A DNA stretch of 52,327 bases. It comes from Pseudidiomarina piscicola (lineage in GTDB: Bacteria; Pseudomonadota; Gammaproteobacteria; Enterobacterales; Alteromonadaceae). Below, in pieces: positions 3,501 through 15,866 of the stretch. Location: contig NZ_CADCXY010000009.1 in assembly GCF_902806985.1 (NCBI RefSeq), positions 1 to 52,327 of the forward strand, written 5' to 3'. Positions within the stretch are counted from its first letter, which is position 1, and the number at the start of each line of letters is the position of its first letter. Below the pieces are notes generated by a model. It was given only the letters and a program-made list of their open reading frames with translations. It did no database searches and had not been told where the DNA came from. The position numbers and the translations under genes are program-made.

Positions 3501-4035
3501 CCCTAAAATTTTCGATCTGAAGTTGCATCGCACGCCAATCGATTGTGGTTTGAAAAGTTGAAACTATTCTCTGTGGTGATGCTTCGGTTGACGCAGCAAG
3601 CCACACCTCCGAAATACTCAATTGCTTAACGTAAACGCCAATAGGTAACTCGAGGTGAGGGAGCTCGATGGAACTATCTGGATCTGTGCTAGGTGCTGCC
3701 TTGCGCGTGATCTGAACCTGCTGTAGTGAAAGACGGTCAACGGTCAGTTCGTTATTGAATAGATCGAACGGACGCCAACGAATTTCCGCTTGCTTAATGG
3801 CCACTTCTAGCCCTTCACTATCGACCACAACACCAGTTAATTCGAGATTGTCGATCAACCGTCCGCTTAAGGTGTCGTACCGAACCTCTGTGCTATTAGC
3901 GTCTAATGCCCAGTTCAGGGCGACATCTAGGGTCCACTTAGAGCCTGTGGTAGTGCCCACTAGTGCGAGTACTAGTAAAGGCACAATCACAAATAAGGCA
4001 ACAATAGTTATTGCTAGTCCTTTTAACCACTTCAT
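565..4035 (-). CDS. tamB: TamB, inner-membrane-anchored outer-membrane assembly protein
   Basis: TamB spans the periplasm and works with TamA to insert autotransporters and other barrel proteins and, in later work, to move phospholipid to the outer membrane. The product (1156 residues from the chosen start) has one N-terminal membrane helix just after MKWLKGL, a long beta-rich body and the conserved C-terminal TamB (DUF490) domain, ending in the typical YTFEK-like barrel signal. I chose the ATG at 4035 because it overlaps the tamA stop as ATGA, the usual coupling; an upstream ATG at 4068 would add 11 residues. The gene ends beside the repeat array. Length fits the family (E. coli about 1259). 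Confidence 0.94.
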   Translation of the reverse strand: MKWLKGLAITIVALFVIVPLLVLALVGTTTGSKWTLDVALNWALDANSTEVRYDTLSGRLIDNLELTGVVVDSEGLEVAIKQAEIRWRPFDLFNNELTVDRLSLQQVQITRKAAPSTDPDSSIELPHLELPIGVYVKQLSISEVWLAASTEASPQRIVSTFQTTIDWRAMQLQIENFRVTREQSLLHGSGQITTTDNYAIELQADYQLAVDYHAVNARRIDGNLTIGGELSGRPLQVTSEFTTAQTPTQRLTATVTAPLAQLQWRAELDLERLPLTLFSGLIEQNVPQLQSLVNESTKLSAEVSVTSEQAVISKLELSGIGAKQGILQLNGKWRHRNFATDYASSPFDLTASYRDLDLTQLAQRAETETLELVEGVIDLEGTPDAYQFEMINQLLYANTETDRERRAELVTNGTGNLNKVSLSTLKANSEELTFTATAELAWSPKLELRLDIKDGTAVVETDAQRTDIELAGGLFFTENVLTADGLTLAIGESRLQLNGSTAGDQRVTGELRLGALEELPLLPAAVTELESLTLNFSLDANEQLNLLKLNVETLAVTTESIGSWSTSEMSQFEFAKQSYGWQLTNTDLCLHHDGDRLGAICQRLEADADKVSMSITGKQLSLWLLNRLRKQDVAQRIAGTVDVEAHAKLDRQSFKLVAINAQVSSDDTTFFALDQDMKTQLEQWQLIAKGDPNQIYATLDGTLTDGQGGLIGEVKVSDLYGAQDIQGELIFQLDDLAMLDWVLPGLRYEGGRATASLQLQGTMAAPTLEGDMEVYAETVGFAQTNLVFNEVRLALIDAPDTQGELQIEGQARSGDQGWLLLEGLAIPLEQEAFLAIEGQNFRALQMPIATVDVSPNIRIHLKDQLIDIAGTVDVPYAQITAPEFENAVARSPDVVVTKNGEAVAGSSNTLGGLKVQAAVRVNLSDNVSVNAYGFEGKLAGSLEVVEQPRRPLTGVGSINVTEGLYTIYGQELAIDRGAFIYNGGDISNPGLNLRVKREINNTTAARNVSVGAQVGGTLTEPSFNLFSTPAMPDSEVLSYLLLGRSMQSAASTGSGDLQLQALLMLGAKGTEAIGESLQDTFGFDEFGIDSNSATRETSFYIGKYLSPKLYVKYGIGLLDSTNTFLVRYQLTERLLIETMTSTKSQGGDIFYTFEKE

Positions 4036-11197: not shown

Positions 11198-11905
11198 TTG
11201 GCAACGCCACATATTAACGCCCCCAAGGACGCTTTCGCTGCGACCTGTTTGCTGCCCGGAGACCCTTTGCGGGCGAAGTTTATTGCAGAAAACTTTTTTG
11301 ATGATGCTGTGTGTGTGAACGACGTTCGCAATATGCTGGGTTATACCGGCAGTTATAAAGGGCAGCCGATGTCCGTAATGGGCACCGGCATGGGGATGCC
11401 GTCCTGTGTTCTGTACAGCACTGAGCTGATGGAACATTACGGTGTGCAACGACTGGTGCGTGTTGGCAGTTGTGGTGCTATTCAAGCAGCGTTAAAGCTT
11501 AAAGATATCGTGCTGGCGCACAGTGCGAGCACTGACTCGAGCATGAACCGTCTACGCTTCGCTGGTATGGACTACAGCGCAGCGGCATCGCCTAGGTTGC
11601 TGCAAAAAGTACTTAATCACGTTGATGACAAGAAGATCCCAGTGGCTGTGGGCCAGGTGTTCTCGACCGACAACTTCTATGGCGCACCAGACCACCAATT
11701 AGCCTTGTTACAAGAGGTTGGAATTCTAGCGGTCGAAATGGAGGCCGCGGGACTTTACGCTGCTGCAGCGAGGTTTAAAGCTCAAGCACTGACCGTACTT
11801 ACGGTCTCCGATAATTTAGTTACGAACACCCAGCTTGATTCAAAAGAACGCGAAGCAGGGTTTTCGATGATGATAGAACTCACCTTAAATGCGCTGGTGA
11901 GTTAA
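11198..11905 (+). CDS. deoD: Purine nucleoside phosphorylase, DeoD type
   Basis: DeoD cleaves purine (deoxy)nucleosides with phosphate to the free base and (deoxy)ribose 1-phosphate. The 235-residue hexameric-type enzyme matches E. coli DeoD from the first residues (MATPHINA, then LPGDPLRAKFIA). The start codon is TTG at 11198: the family N terminus begins exactly there, with AAGGA upstream. The last 40 bases are repeated exactly at 13060-13099, downstream of an inserted ompW cassette. The gene itself is complete. Confidence 0.96.
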   Translation: MATPHINAPKDAFAATCLLPGDPLRAKFIAENFFDDAVCVNDVRNMLGYTGSYKGQPMSVMGTGMGMPSCVLYSTELMEHYGVQRLVRVGSCGAIQAALKLKDIVLAHSASTDSSMNRLRFAGMDYSAAASPRLLQKVLNHVDDKKIPVAVGQVFSTDNFYGAPDHQLALLQEVGILAVEMEAAGLYAAAARFKAQALTVLTVSDNLVTNTQLDSKEREAGFSMMIELTLNALVS

Positions 11906-11907
11906 CC
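11868..11907. repeat. 40-bp direct repeat, copy 1 (deoD 3' end)
   Basis: These 40 bases, ending just after the deoD stop codon, are identical to 13060-13099. The two copies enclose 1152 bases holding ompW and a small membrane protein gene. Identity stops sharply on both sides. Confidence 0.95.
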
Positions 11908-12059
11908 TTTCGGGTTCCAAATCATTTCTACTTATCCCCCAAGCTGTCGCTGCCATCAACAGTCGCGACACATTCAACCTATGGATATTCGCATTATTTC
12001 GATTGCGTAGCACATGCGTTGAAAATTGCGTAACTTTTTATACATACCCCGAGTAAAGC

Positions 12060-12100
12060 TTGATCTCTATCAATGTTTTAACTCTATAACCACATAAAAT
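12060..12100 (+). promoter_or_regulatory. FNR-type class II promoter of ompW
   Basis: TTGATCTCTATCAA at 12060-12073 is a perfect FNR/Anr consensus palindrome (TTGAT-N4-ATCAA). A TAAAAT -10 element lies at 12095-12100. A start site near 12107 puts the box centre about 41 bases upstream, the position for class II activation by FNR. AAGGAG at 12115-12120 then serves the ATG at 12127. FNR control of ompW is known in E. coli, which supports the reading. Confidence 0.8.
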
Positions 12101-12126
12101 GTAGGGGAATAACTAAGGAGTGCTGT

Positions 12127-12831
12127 ATGAAAACCTCAATGATTATAAGTGGCTTGTTAATTTCTGGCTTCATTTCCCCTATGGCTATTGCCGCAGATCA
12201 GTTTTCCGTGAATGTCGGTGCTATTGGTGTTATGCCGAACGATGATAGCGCATCATTACCGGTAATTGAATCTTTAGCCGGCCTAACTAGCGGTAGCACA
12301 GGTGTTACCGTCGACAACAATACACAATTGGGTATTACTTTTGACTATAGCTTCACGCCAAACTGGAGTTTGGAGTTAATTGCAGCAACCCCGTTTAAGC
12401 ATGAAATTCATGGTACGGGTGCAATCGAGGGGCTAAAAGTCGGCGAAACCAAACAGCTTCCACCAACTTTATTGGCGCAATATCACTTTACTTTAGAAAG
12501 CGATGTTATTGACCCATTTGTCGGTTTTGGTGTGAACTACACCACGTTTTTTGAAGAAAAAGTAAGCCCTGAACTCGGTAGTGTTTTGACTGACCTTGCA
12601 GTAATTACTGCAAATGACGATGTTGAACTTGCACTATCAAATAGCTGGGGTTTTGCTTTACAAGCGGGCGTAAACGTTAAGCTGAGTGACAACTGGGGAC
12701 TAAATCTAATGATTAGCCGTATGGCGATTGATACAGTTGCGGATGTTCGTATCAACGGTGCGACGGCAGAATCTATTGCTGTTGACATTGATCCTACGGT
12801 TGCCATGTTCGGTCTTCGTTATAGCTTCTAA
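12127..12831 (+). CDS. ompW: OmpW-family outer membrane protein
   Basis: OmpW is an eight-stranded outer-membrane barrel with a hydrophobic channel, commonly induced under low oxygen. The 234-residue product has a signal peptide ending near AIAADQF, alternating beta strands such as LGITFDYSFTPNWSLELIAATP, the family block PPTLLAQYHF, the segment DPFVGFGVNYTTFF, and a terminal aromatic residue (LRYSF). It is preceded by an FNR-type promoter and followed after 11 bases by a small membrane protein gene. Both lie inside the 40-bp direct repeats. Confidence 0.93.
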   Translation: MKTSMIISGLLISGFISPMAIAADQFSVNVGAIGVMPNDDSASLPVIESLAGLTSGSTGVTVDNNTQLGITFDYSFTPNWSLELIAATPFKHEIHGTGAIEGLKVGETKQLPPTLLAQYHFTLESDVIDPFVGFGVNYTTFFEEKVSPELGSVLTDLAVITANDDVELALSNSWGFALQAGVNVKLSDNWGLNLMISRMAIDTVADVRINGATAESIAVDIDPTVAMFGLRYSF

Positions 12832-12842
12832 GGAGGCAGGCT

Positions 12843-12971
12843 ATGCAATTGCTTAAAGAGTTTATCTCTGATCCAGTTATCTTTTTTTCATTTACTGGAC
12901 TAGCGGTACTGATGGGTATTTGCACGTTTTACGTGATTTACTTCTTAAAGAAAGCAAACGAAAAAAAGTAA
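12843..12971 (+). CDS. Small single-helix membrane protein, DUF3149-like
   Basis: A 42-residue frame starts MQLLKEFISDP and continues with one hydrophobic helix (about residues 12-34) and a basic tail KKANEKK. A strong TAAGGAGG sequence overlaps the ompW stop and stands at proper spacing from this ATG, which argues strongly that it is translated. Length and layout (a short amphipathic start, D-P, one helix, KK-rich end) resemble DUF3149 proteins of Alteromonadales; I assign that from memory. It is probably co-expressed with ompW under FNR control. Function unknown. Confidence 0.8.
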   Translation: MQLLKEFISDPVIFFSFTGLAVLMGICTFYVIYFLKKANEKK

Positions 12972-12978
12972 CCTAAAA

Positions 12979-13044
12979 CAAGCTGGTTTCCGTGTTTGAC
13001 TCAGCATTTAAAAAACGAGTATTAGCAGATTCGGTACCAGCTTG
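12979..13044. repeat. Inverted repeat at the right end of the ompW cassette
   Basis: CAAGCTGGT at 12979-12987 is the exact reverse complement of ACCAGCTTG at 13036-13044, with 48 bases between. It sits after the small membrane protein gene and 15 bases before the second 40-bp repeat. It may help end transcription or mark the cassette boundary. Confidence 0.5.
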
Positions 13045-13059
13045 CTAGGCATCTTTCTT

Positions 13060-13099
13060 TGATGATAGAACTCACCTTAAATGCGCTGGTGAGTTAACC
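13060..13099. repeat. 40-bp direct repeat, copy 2 (orphan deoD 3' end)
   Basis: This is an exact copy of the last 38 coding and stop-codon bases of deoD plus two more, here without the rest of the gene. Only this copy is followed by CACCAGCGC, which completes a hairpin with the repeat's own GCGCTGGTG. That suggests this is the original junction downstream of deoD, and that copy 1 restored the gene end when the ompW segment arrived. Confidence 0.93.
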
Positions 13100-13108
13100 C
13101 ACCAGCGC
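13083..13108. terminator. Hairpin between the ompW cassette and the subtilase gene
   Basis: GCGCTGGTG at 13083-13091 and CACCAGCGC at 13100-13108 form a perfect 9-bp stem with an 8-base loop. No good T-run follows on either strand, so it is a weak or factor-assisted terminator at best. It lies 7 bases beyond the stop codon of the convergent subtilase gene. Confidence 0.5.
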
Positions 13109-13115
13109 TCCTTGC

Positions 13116-15578
13116 TTAGTTACCAATGCGCGGCAACAACTGCGTCAGATCTCGAGCTAATTCAGCCCGGGTGACACTTTGGTCTGGACCGAACGAGGCG
13201 GTAAACTTAGGTGTCAGGTCGAAAGGACCTTGCACGACGTCAAGTTCAACTTGCGCAAGACCCATGTTGAGTGCCAGTTGAACATGACCACGCTTGGTTG
13301 CCGGAATGGCAAGACTATCTTCGATCTCAATCACTTGGTCGAACCGAGTTACCGTTAACGGTTGCTGAGGATCAAAGGCCGCGGCTTGTTGCTGTAACCC
13401 TAGCGCTTGCACGAGTGCATAGGCGACATCAACGCGAGAGACCGATTGATTGGCACCAAACCAACGTGCAGAGCTTGGCGACATTAACGGTGCAGTCGCT
13501 GCTGCTCCACCTAGTAGTGCGCCGTCATTCGCCGTCGCTGCGTTGGCAAAGGCTGCATGGCTCGCATGGGTGTCGAAGTAGAGAGACTCTGAACCTTGTT
13601 GTGCTTGGCGCAACAAGCCACTTAGGCTTAAGGCGTCGGCAAGTTCGATTTTGGTGGCCGCCGCATCAGGCGAGAAACCGCCATTGCGCGCATCCATCAG
13701 CCGCTCGTTGATAGCGAGCTCAATAAAGCCACGCGCTGGGTGACCGGCGGTATCATCGATGCCTGAAATACCCGCAGATTTCACCGTGCGAATCGAAACT
13801 TCGGTTGGAAGAGGTAAGCCAATACCGTTAGTGACACCTAGTGGGTCTAATGACAGGCCGCTAACAGAGCCAATACCACGAGCGTAGACCTTCCACGTAC
13901 CAGCGACGGCTGGCGCCGTTACACCGACCGAGGAACCCAGTACCGGTAGCCCAATTCCTGAGCCATAACGATTGCCGTTCGGATCCTCTAAAACAAATGC
14001 CGTGCCTGACTCAATTTGCGCACTGGCAAGCACCAAAGTAGCGTCTTGGTCAACGGTGAAGGTTTCAGCTGCGGTGTCGCCAACAGGGAAGTACTCAACA
14101 GTGCGGGTAAAGCTATCGCCATCGGTGAGTTCAACATTAGCGTTGAAGGTGCGGTTTTGTTTTACCGTATCACCGAACAGCGTTGGGCTCTCGAGGGCCG
14201 CTTTGACCGCTGCGTGGGCATTAATATAACCGGCACCCGCTTCCCAAGAGTCGCGACCTGGCATGACCGTCGCGGTGTCTTGAATGATTTGCTTAACTTC
14301 CTGCCATTGTAGGTTGGGGTTGGCTTCTAAGATTAAGGCAACGACACCTGAAACATGAGGAGCAGCCATCGAGGTACCGCTGGAGATGGTATAGTAAGCT
14401 AGTTGTTCCGGCGGAATCTCCTCGGAGTCTTGTTGTGCACTCAAGCCACCTAAGCTCGACAGTGAGGCGCGAGCAGAAATAATATCAACTCCTGGTGCCG
14501 TGATTGTCGGGCGGTCTTCCCAGGTATAGGTTTCACCGTCCACTTCAACTTCGCCTGACTTGCCATCGACACCACGCGAACTGAAATCCGCTAATTTGCC
14601 GCTTTTATCACCTGCGGCAACGGTAATAACCCACGGTGCTTTTTTAAAGTTACCGGTGATGGTCGATTCGCCTGGGCCTGAATTACCTGCCGAGAAAACA
14701 GTGATCACACCATTGTCAGCGAGCTTTTTGGTGGCCACGTTGGTCGGATCATCGGGGTTAAAATCGGTTCCTACATCGCCGGTGTTACCGAACGAATTTG
14801 AAATCACACGAATGTTATAGGTAAATTGATTATGAAGGGCGTAATCAAAGCCACCTAAAGTGTCGAGAATAAACAGACCAGCACCTGAGCCATAGCCAAT
14901 TAAAGAAGCTCCTGGCGCCACGCCGGTGTGTTCTCCGTTACTCATACTACCGCTACCACCAACGGTGCCAGCAACATGCGTACCATGGCCACCCAGAATA
15001 TCTGTATTCGCTACATTTTCCTGGTACGTAATAGGTAGCATACCACTGAGGCTGTTCAGGTTTACCTGAGCTAATACGTTCTGTACCACGTGCTGCGGGT
15101 ACATTAAGTCACCGTGTGTCCCATCAACACCAGAGTCATTGATGACAACGCCGATACCGCGGCCGGAAAAGGGAATACCATTGTTACGTAGGTCTTTATC
15201 GGCTCGAAGGTTTTGTACGCCGGTAATAGCCGTGGCATCGCCGTTTTCTAACGAAAGCGGGTCATTATGCCAAACTGAGCGAACATCTTCGCGTTGATAA
15301 ATGGTTTCGATTTGAGCGCGAGTTGCTAGTACACCAGCCATAGGTAATTCTTGCATCACCACGCCGTTAAGCCCGAGCTGTGCCAAAAATTCGACTTGGC
15401 TTGCCGAGGGAGCTTCGCTCTGATCAAAGGTAACGATCACGGGATGTAACGTTGCATCATCGGCGGCACTTACGATTGAACGTAGGTCTGGGTCAAAGGT
15501 TTTCGCTATACCCACTGTTGACGATAGTGAGAATGCTAATGCGAGTGTAATACTTGAAAGCTTTGTTTTGGTCATCAT
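13116..15578 (-). CDS. Secreted subtilisin-like serine protease (S8) with SLH-like C-terminal repeats
   Basis: The 820-residue product has a signal peptide (to about residue 25), an inhibitor I9-like propeptide, and an S8 domain with the catalytic triad Asp148 (INDSGVDGTH), His198 (GGHGTHVAG) and Ser403 (SGTSMAAPH), plus the oxyanion Asn299 (SAGNSG). A beta-rich region about 490-600 follows. The last 200 residues resemble three S-layer homology repeats, for example FIELAINERLMDARNGGFSP and VTRAELARDL. AGGA stands 8 bases before the first ATG of MMTKT. Likely an exported or surface-attached nutrient protease. Confidence 0.92.
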   Translation of the reverse strand: MMTKTKLSSITLALAFSLSSTVGIAKTFDPDLRSIVSAADDATLHPVIVTFDQSEAPSASQVEFLAQLGLNGVVMQELPMAGVLATRAQIETIYQREDVRSVWHNDPLSLENGDATAITGVQNLRADKDLRNNGIPFSGRGIGVVINDSGVDGTHGDLMYPQHVVQNVLAQVNLNSLSGMLPITYQENVANTDILGGHGTHVAGTVGGSGSMSNGEHTGVAPGASLIGYGSGAGLFILDTLGGFDYALHNQFTYNIRVISNSFGNTGDVGTDFNPDDPTNVATKKLADNGVITVFSAGNSGPGESTITGNFKKAPWVITVAAGDKSGKLADFSSRGVDGKSGEVEVDGETYTWEDRPTITAPGVDIISARASLSSLGGLSAQQDSEEIPPEQLAYYTISSGTSMAAPHVSGVVALILEANPNLQWQEVKQIIQDTATVMPGRDSWEAGAGYINAHAAVKAALESPTLFGDTVKQNRTFNANVELTDGDSFTRTVEYFPVGDTAAETFTVDQDATLVLASAQIESGTAFVLEDPNGNRYGSGIGLPVLGSSVGVTAPAVAGTWKVYARGIGSVSGLSLDPLGVTNGIGLPLPTEVSIRTVKSAGISGIDDTAGHPARGFIELAINERLMDARNGGFSPDAAATKIELADALSLSGLLRQAQQGSESLYFDTHASHAAFANAATANDGALLGGAAATAPLMSPSSARWFGANQSVSRVDVAYALVQALGLQQQAAAFDPQQPLTVTRFDQVIEIEDSLAIPATKRGHVQLALNMGLAQVELDVVQGPFDLTPKFTASFGPDQSVTRAELARDLTQLLPRIGN

Positions 15579-15866
15579 AGTTGCAGTCCTGTATCAGTTA
15601 TTTTTGTTGGCGATATCAGACTGCCATGAGCTCAGGTGGCAAATATATAGGGGTAATCCCTCTTATTGCTCGAAACAAAAAGCTAAAAGAAGTAATGGTT
15701 GCGCGATTTATAATGTTTAGTCAATTTGCTAGAATAGAGGAATCATTTTTACAGTTATTAATAATGGTTTTTCTAGCTGTAACGCTTGTCGGGCTGTTTC
15801 AAAGTCAGGGCGTAGAGTTAACTTATATTGTGTACAAACCGTTGTACCACATGGGAATTTAAATAC
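15579..15866. other. 288-bp spacer between divergent subtilase and prfC
   Basis: No convincing gene lies here; a 93-codon frame on the + strand lacks a ribosome binding site and resembles nothing I know. GTACAA at 15832-15837 and TTGTAC at 15842-15847 form a dyad with a 4-base loop, 20 bases before prfC, which could be an operator or leader hairpin. Promoters for both genes must be here but none is clear. Confidence 0.5.

Follow-up and report, generated by a model that had tools for sequence, protein, structure and literature searches.

How did an ompW gene come to lie between two perfect copies of the end of deoD in Pseudidiomarina piscicola? The window, i.e., the whole stretch of 52,327 nucleotides that was analysed, carries the deo genes on the plus strand, followed by ompW, a gene for a 42-aa DUF3149-like protein, an S8 protease gene on the minus strand, and prfC. 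The names deoC-deoA-deoB-deoD (plus strand) and prfC are presumptive, as they were given by reading the translations. The features that matter here are the following.

11198–11905, plus strand: deoD (purine-nucleoside phosphorylase, PNP_UDP_1), 79% and 77% amino acid identity to P. halophila and P. terrestris, respectively
11868–11907, plus strand: proximal copy of the 40-base repeat, consisting of 38 bases of the deoD end including the stop codon plus CC, with the left arm and loop only of the old terminator
11908–12050, no strand: left end of the insert, 143 bases, convincing match only at its own place in 78 genomes
12060–12073, plus strand: FNR-box-like palindrome TTGAT-N4-ATCAA upstream of ompW, in 9 of 9 aligned species
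12127–12831, plus strand: ompW (Pfam PF03922), intact, horizontally acquired as judged from the tree and dN/dS
12843–12971, plus strand: gene for the 42-aa DUF3149-like membrane protein, after ompW in 8 aligned relatives
12972–13049, plus strand: decayed hairpin, counterpart of the pre-DUF393 hairpin in relatives, with the GGAGG of the 3' arm lost and a TTG start-like codon at 13042–13044
13060–13099, plus strand: 40-base repeat, distal copy, which carries the ancestral deoD terminator
13083–13108, no strand: complete terminator-like hairpin (arms of 9 bp, loop of 8 bases) that separates deoD and the insert from the convergent S8 gene
13116–15578, minus strand: S8 protease gene, convergent to deoD and directly after it in 6 of 19 relatives

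The repeat is exact over 40 bases (11868–11907 and 13060–13099) with 1152 bases between its copies, and the likelihood of a chance origin is negligible at an estimated 1e-15. When it is lengthened to 46 bases, two mismatches appear. The initial annotation had described a perfect 40-bp repeat of the deoD 3' end around ompW, enclosing 1152 bases with ompW and a small membrane protein gene, and both statements are borne out by the coordinates, the PF03922 match and the DUF3149-like translation. Its wording "last 40 bases of deoD" holds for 38 bases, which include the stop codon TAA (11903–11905 in the proximal copy), and fails for the final two, which lie beyond the gene. The other direct-repeat families of at least 24 bases in the whole window are a tandem array at 299–447 and one 30-base pair with 83% identity whose members are 20 kb apart.

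Only the distal copy completes the terminator hairpin. Its 9-bp stem at 13083–13108 folds with a z of −3.45 against shuffles, whereas the proximal copy folds no better than shuffles (z 0.44), as had been claimed from the sequence. The insertion point is the border of the loop and the right arm in the deoD terminator hairpin. We compared the draft genome of P. piscicola (G000; 16 contigs, 2.51 Mb) with 25 relatives, which together with it make up a set of 26 species of the genus, among them P. halophila (G007), P. terrestris (G024), P. aquimaris (G002), P. homiensis (G008), and sp. CB1 (G021). The deoD gene is whole in 19 of the relatives, split over two contigs in one, and without a match in five. 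In none of the 19 with a whole deoD does ompW occur in the roughly 1.5 kb that follow the gene; in G017, the contig runs out after 1.3 kb. The convergent S8 gene directly follows deoD in P. halophila, P. terrestris, sp. CB1, P. aquimaris, G011, and P. homiensis, and it lies on the opposite side of deoD in G015; in the remaining relatives, deoD is followed by prfC, by cytochrome and reductase-like genes, or by others, as read from the translations.

The two relatives nearest by deoD, P. halophila and P. terrestris, retain the empty site. In both, deoD leads through the hairpin to the S8 protease gene with no insert, and the full hairpin is intact (z −4.06 and −4.14). Because these nearest relatives keep the full hairpin there, the arrangement deoD-hairpin-S8 is ancestral and the insert came later. 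The empty site was a prediction of the initial annotation, and the outcome set against it, no empty site anywhere in the family, was put to the test and is not what the relatives show. The same two genomes support its further claims that the distal copy is the ancestral deoD terminator and that the ompW unit arrived after that terminator. The deoD-prfC gap as a whole (11905–15828 of the window and its counterparts) varies in gene content among Pseudidiomarina species and is, to judge by these gene orders, a spot of repeated gene gain.

The insert contains ompW and the DUF3149 gene and no recombinase gene within its 1.15 kb, which agrees with the original description of a cassette lacking an integrase. 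The ompW translation matches PF03922 with an E of 1e-49, and the 42-aa protein matches DUF3149 (PF11346) with an E of 6e-4 at 19.8 bits, under the curated cut-off of 23.2. The palindrome ahead of ompW resembles an FNR box. In E. coli, ompW is known to be under FNR control (PMC4886647). The G+C content of the insert is 41.5% vs 49.4% for the window, and that of ompW alone is 43.3% vs 47–50% in five relatives. Blastn similarity to relatives is clear from about 12052 to 12943, and to 12955 in G003. For the 143 bases to the left of this, the next-best match in the 78 genomes has an E of 0.03 (91% over 23 bases), and when they were compared with the 3 kb that precede ompW in each of 8 relatives, no similarity above that of shuffles emerged.

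On its right, the insert appears to stop within a truncated DUF393 start, i.e., at an arbitrary break. Hairpin folding covered seven relatives, with P. homiensis left out (frame difference in DUF3149), and in six of them the hairpin before DUF393 has a 3' arm with GGAGG ahead of the DUF393 start; in G016, where DUF393 was not found, GGGGG stands in the hairpin instead. Alignment of the right junction (13030–13075) to relatives was not above shuffles, so it is the hairpin and where it lies that point to a DUF393 vestige, and microhomology with DUF393 remains a suggestion. The GGAGG-bearing 3' arm is an observation in its own right: it belongs to a hairpin conserved between DUF3149 and DUF393 (loci L077–L080, L082, and L083), for which translational control of DUF393 is a possible role.

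The native ompW locus of P. piscicola has been emptied. Each of the 22 relatives with ompW (of 25) has a single copy, and in P. piscicola the only match is the copy at deoD. The surroundings of ompW were fetched for 10 of the 22 relatives (L077–L086), and in eight of these (L077–L084) the gene occupies one syntenic locus whose flanking gene families are common on both sides. DUF393 is next on the right in seven of the eight syntenic loci, while L085 has DUF393 only and L086 has neither. A DNA search found DUF3149-like stretches apart from ompW in six relatives (G004, G005, G006, G019, G023, and G025); thus, DUF3149 is not always the neighbour of ompW. In P. piscicola, the flanks of the native locus are kept (851885–853253 and 853331–853741 of its contig C1) and the ompW stretch is gone: 77 bases separate the matched flanks vs 1552 in P. 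terrestris, where they hold ompW, DUF3149, and DUF393. At a distance of about 6 kb from this emptied locus, P. piscicola has a DUF393 gene (within C1 846000–864000, L096). It is divergent, with 60% identity to P. terrestris, 66% to the nearest relative (G022), and the longest branch in its tree, which would fit a foreign copy that took the place of the native DUF393 as well. We considered and rejected the idea that DUF393 travelled along with ompW; since the DUF393 of P. piscicola is divergent, the native DUF393 was apparently lost as well.

The ompW gene next to deoD and the genes beside it differ in lineage. In trees of 19 species, deoB+deoD place P. piscicola with P. halophila and P. terrestris (bootstrap/SH-aLRT support 100/99), whereas ompW places it with P. 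aquimaris, P. homiensis, and sp. CB1 (100/97). The AU test rejected both an ompW tree forced to join P. piscicola with P. halophila and P. terrestris (p-AU 0.005) and a deoB+deoD tree forced to join it with P. aquimaris, P. homiensis, and sp. CB1 (p-AU 0.0001). The long branch of P. piscicola and the lower G+C content call for some caution with the ompW tree, as both can disturb trees. DNA identity, which for these five relatives spans most of the unit, points the same way, with 77% to P. aquimaris, 77% to sp. CB1, and 75% to P. homiensis, compared with 72% to P. halophila and 71% to P. terrestris; the values for G003 and G011 are 73% and 71%, and G016 reaches 75% across a smaller portion. The dN of ompW is about 0.09–0.10 to the P. 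aquimaris group vs 0.16–0.19 to P. halophila and P. terrestris. The dS is about 2.1 to P. aquimaris and, being saturated, could not be computed for the other four, and such saturated or near-saturated values imply that the true donor lies outside the sampled set. The reading frame of ompW is undamaged, and most of the changes in it are synonymous.

With modest confidence, we lean towards a one-off, non-site-specific capture, in which an ompW unit was acquired horizontally and inserted downstream of deoD, a recipient-type target was duplicated, and the native operon was lost. The donor would be a Pseudidiomarina related to P. aquimaris or P. homiensis, which contributed a chromosomal fragment with the ompW-DUF3149 unit. 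A single insertion would have brought this fragment into the convergent gap between deoD and the S8 protease gene and duplicated 40 bases of the recipient-type deoD end, leaving deoD intact and the original terminator beyond the insert. Loss of the native ompW-DUF3149-DUF393 operon from the old locus would then have made the newcomer the sole ompW. Capture may have proceeded by template switching or break repair (e.g., staggered) at the terminator palindrome, or through a circularised fragment that had picked up a deoD end and integrated by a single crossover. We infer both this order of gain and loss and the non-site-specific nature of the capture.

The repeat itself is of the recipient type, as the deoD ends of P. 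aquimaris, sp. CB1, and P. homiensis, i.e., the sampled donor lineage only, clearly differ from it. The second copy therefore probably came from the recipient's own target or from that of a close kin. The 40-base stretch differs from that of P. halophila at 6 of 40 positions, and the two copies in P. piscicola are identical, which suggests that the event is younger than that split. The location may reflect survival more than targeting, for little harm would be expected from an insert that lies in so short a convergent gap and restores the end of deoD. As a counterpoint, no donor with matching junctions was found, and the left 143 bases are without a convincing match.

The event is of a known kind and unusually legible. 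In xenologous displacement, a gene gives way to the version of a relative that was acquired horizontally and sits at another locus. Here the gene tree conflicts with that of the backbone genes and the native locus is empty; as in xenologous displacement, the native copy was lost, a congeneric foreign copy is kept elsewhere, and its frame is intact. What sets the present case apart is the perfect target duplication of 40 bases at its junction. A precedent for such a duplication is described in PMC3240628, where clones with target duplications, 56 of 60 by PCR, were concluded to result from single-crossover integration of circles. In that system, too, recipient sequence is repeated directly on both sides of the insert and no recombinase takes part; it differs in that the repeats reported there are 109–950 bases long in 14 sequenced clones and arose by conjugation with engineered plasmids, compared with 40 bases here. 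Read as such a capture, the locus offers a snapshot of gene replacement between species, with the empty site, the emptied native site, the lineage of origin, and the repeat junctions all legible. It would show how an outer-membrane gene and its FNR-like control site were swapped for those of a relative at a different locus, and how an insertion could settle harmlessly at a gene end thanks to a short target duplication.

An integrase-made mini-island is a rather unlikely origin, although several features fit it. A tyrosine recombinase, either the element's own and since lost or one acting in trans, would have acted at the deoD 3' end, and the repeats would be attL and attR. The perfect repeat restores the gene 3' end with its stop codon, the empty site is single-copy, and the site consists of 9-bp inverted arms around an 8-base spacer (9-8-9); no integrase lies inside or beside the insert. 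The genome holds six PF00589 matches, of which the two strongest have close counterparts in 5 of 5 relatives searched and the other four are candidates, but none of the six is on the window contig, and no recombinase gene lies within the 1.15 kb. In this genome, the missing integrase is weak evidence, because a 5.4-kb cargo at tRNA-Val is also without a PF00589 match and islands without their own tyrosine integrase thus seem to occur here. The 40 bases gave 43 weak matches (E up to 20, own two places included) vs 10–23 for five shuffles in a search of about 0.88 Mb (about a third of the genome, including 13-kb stretches round four integrase matches); however, the best other match, at 26.6 bits, falls within the shuffles' best of 23.5–31.2 bits. 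The microcin H47 island (PMC3191183, PMC5426353) is described as a cargo that is bounded by direct repeats and lacks a recombinase gene of its own, and it is a precedent in that respect, but it is 13 kb long, its repeats are extensive and imperfect, and its excision has been shown, whereas this insert has 1.15 kb, perfect 40-base repeats, and is known from sequence. Islands such as SGI1 at trmE, as presented in PMC8409611, share the position at a gene 3' end and the repeat-restored gene end, and our insert differs from them in having no integrase or mobility genes. Further points against an integrase are the common syntenic locus of ompW in relatives, the absence of a second copy, the lack of a deoD or ompW relative in viral contigs by pattern-based search, and literature searches on deoD as an integration site, which listed nothing relevant. 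An extension of the idea, a minimal trans-mobilised element with attachment sites only, which targets the palindromic deoD terminator and shares a host or element recombinase with the recombinase-free cargos at tRNA-Val and between rpoS and mutS, seems to us quite improbable; a mechanism shared by several recombinase-free cargos with gene-end repeats would be testable.

Other routes fare worse against the trees and the two loci. In a move within one genome, the native ompW unit would have been relocated from the old locus to deoD, and the finding of an empty old locus and a filled new one in the same genome fits this; however, the ompW at deoD belongs to another lineage by the tree and the AU test, and its G+C content is atypical, which leaves the move disfavoured and very improbable. 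An assembly artefact might be feared in a draft of 16 contigs, but the genome offers no alternative location for ompW and the sequences on either side of the insert agree with the empty site in relatives, and we give this explanation almost no weight. Repeats of 40 bases are shorter than the usual assembly k-mers or reads, which also counts against an artefact. The initial annotation had left a choice between a tiny mobile cassette and a recombination duplication. The latter is the better half, since the single-copy ompW, the syntenic locus, the lack of a recombinase, and the arbitrary right end speak against a mobile cassette; the same unit with flanking repeats of its own was not found at other loci, ompW being single-copy in P. 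piscicola and in the 22 relatives.

Plasmid, phage, and integron origins were tried and rejected. Plasmid and phage searches with 11860–13120 gave no match, and the 40-base repeat had no exact match of 39/40 bases in viral contigs. A pattern-based search of viral contigs for relatives of deoD and ompW fitted 5 and 10 stretches, respectively, of which none was confirmed. On these searches, an origin from a plasmid, phage, or provirus was rejected. The hairpin after DUF3149 looks attC-like, and an integron cassette was rejected because this hairpin corresponds to the conserved pre-DUF393 hairpin of relatives.

Repeats around ompW in relatives are of another nature. No exact repeats of at least 22 bases and 300–8000 bases apart occur in the ten ompW loci L077–L086, and among 11 further ompW loci of overlapping species (L120–L130) one has such a repeat, that of P. 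marina (L130, 8751–15164). It is chiefly the palindrome GGTGCAGTCC with its complement, present in 5 copies in 20 kb, some of which flank ompW on both sides. The palindrome also occurs near ompW in the related L128 and L129 as well as in L085, and is absent from the window. It is a dispersed terminator-like repeat between genes and no copy of a gene end. The P. marina locus also has a 265-base repeat beyond ompW.

A survey of the P. piscicola genome for exact repeats of at least 22 bases, 300–8000 bases apart, covered C1 1–381000, 380001–761000, and 846000–864000 and the window; in four 13-kb stretches round integrase matches, repeats of at least 18 bases were sought. Besides the insert, it yielded two cargos, one 30-base pair, two pairs of tRNAs, two arrays of GAACATC, and a unit of 172 bases in near-tandem copies. 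The first cargo (C1 683591–689091, L267/L268) consists of about 5.4 kb, at both ends of which 43 bases from the 3' end of tRNA-Val are found. It comprises a gene for 517 aa that has no Pfam or PADLOC match and a PHP-AAA ATPase gene whose PADLOC matches are partial, those to Ppl and mad3 being the best; no PF00589 match lies inside, and the whole looks like an integrase-free defence-type island. The second cargo (C1 422069–428192, L254) is framed by a 26-base repeat around 6.1 kb with an RHS-repeat protein and stands between rpoS-like and mutS-like genes, named from their translations; no tRNA was found there. The 26-base repeat presumably resembles part of tRNA-Arg. The 30-base pair lies at 427719 and 429442 of contig C2, about 1 kb from an integrase match, and its translation resembles what we take to be an RHS motif. 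In the window, the array at 299–447 consists of a GAACATC-rich unit of 50 bases, repeated three times in tandem, and further GAACATC arrays occur at the start of C1 and near its base 4032. Finally, C1 39910–40390 holds three imperfect tandem copies of the 172-base unit, each with a terminator-like sequence.
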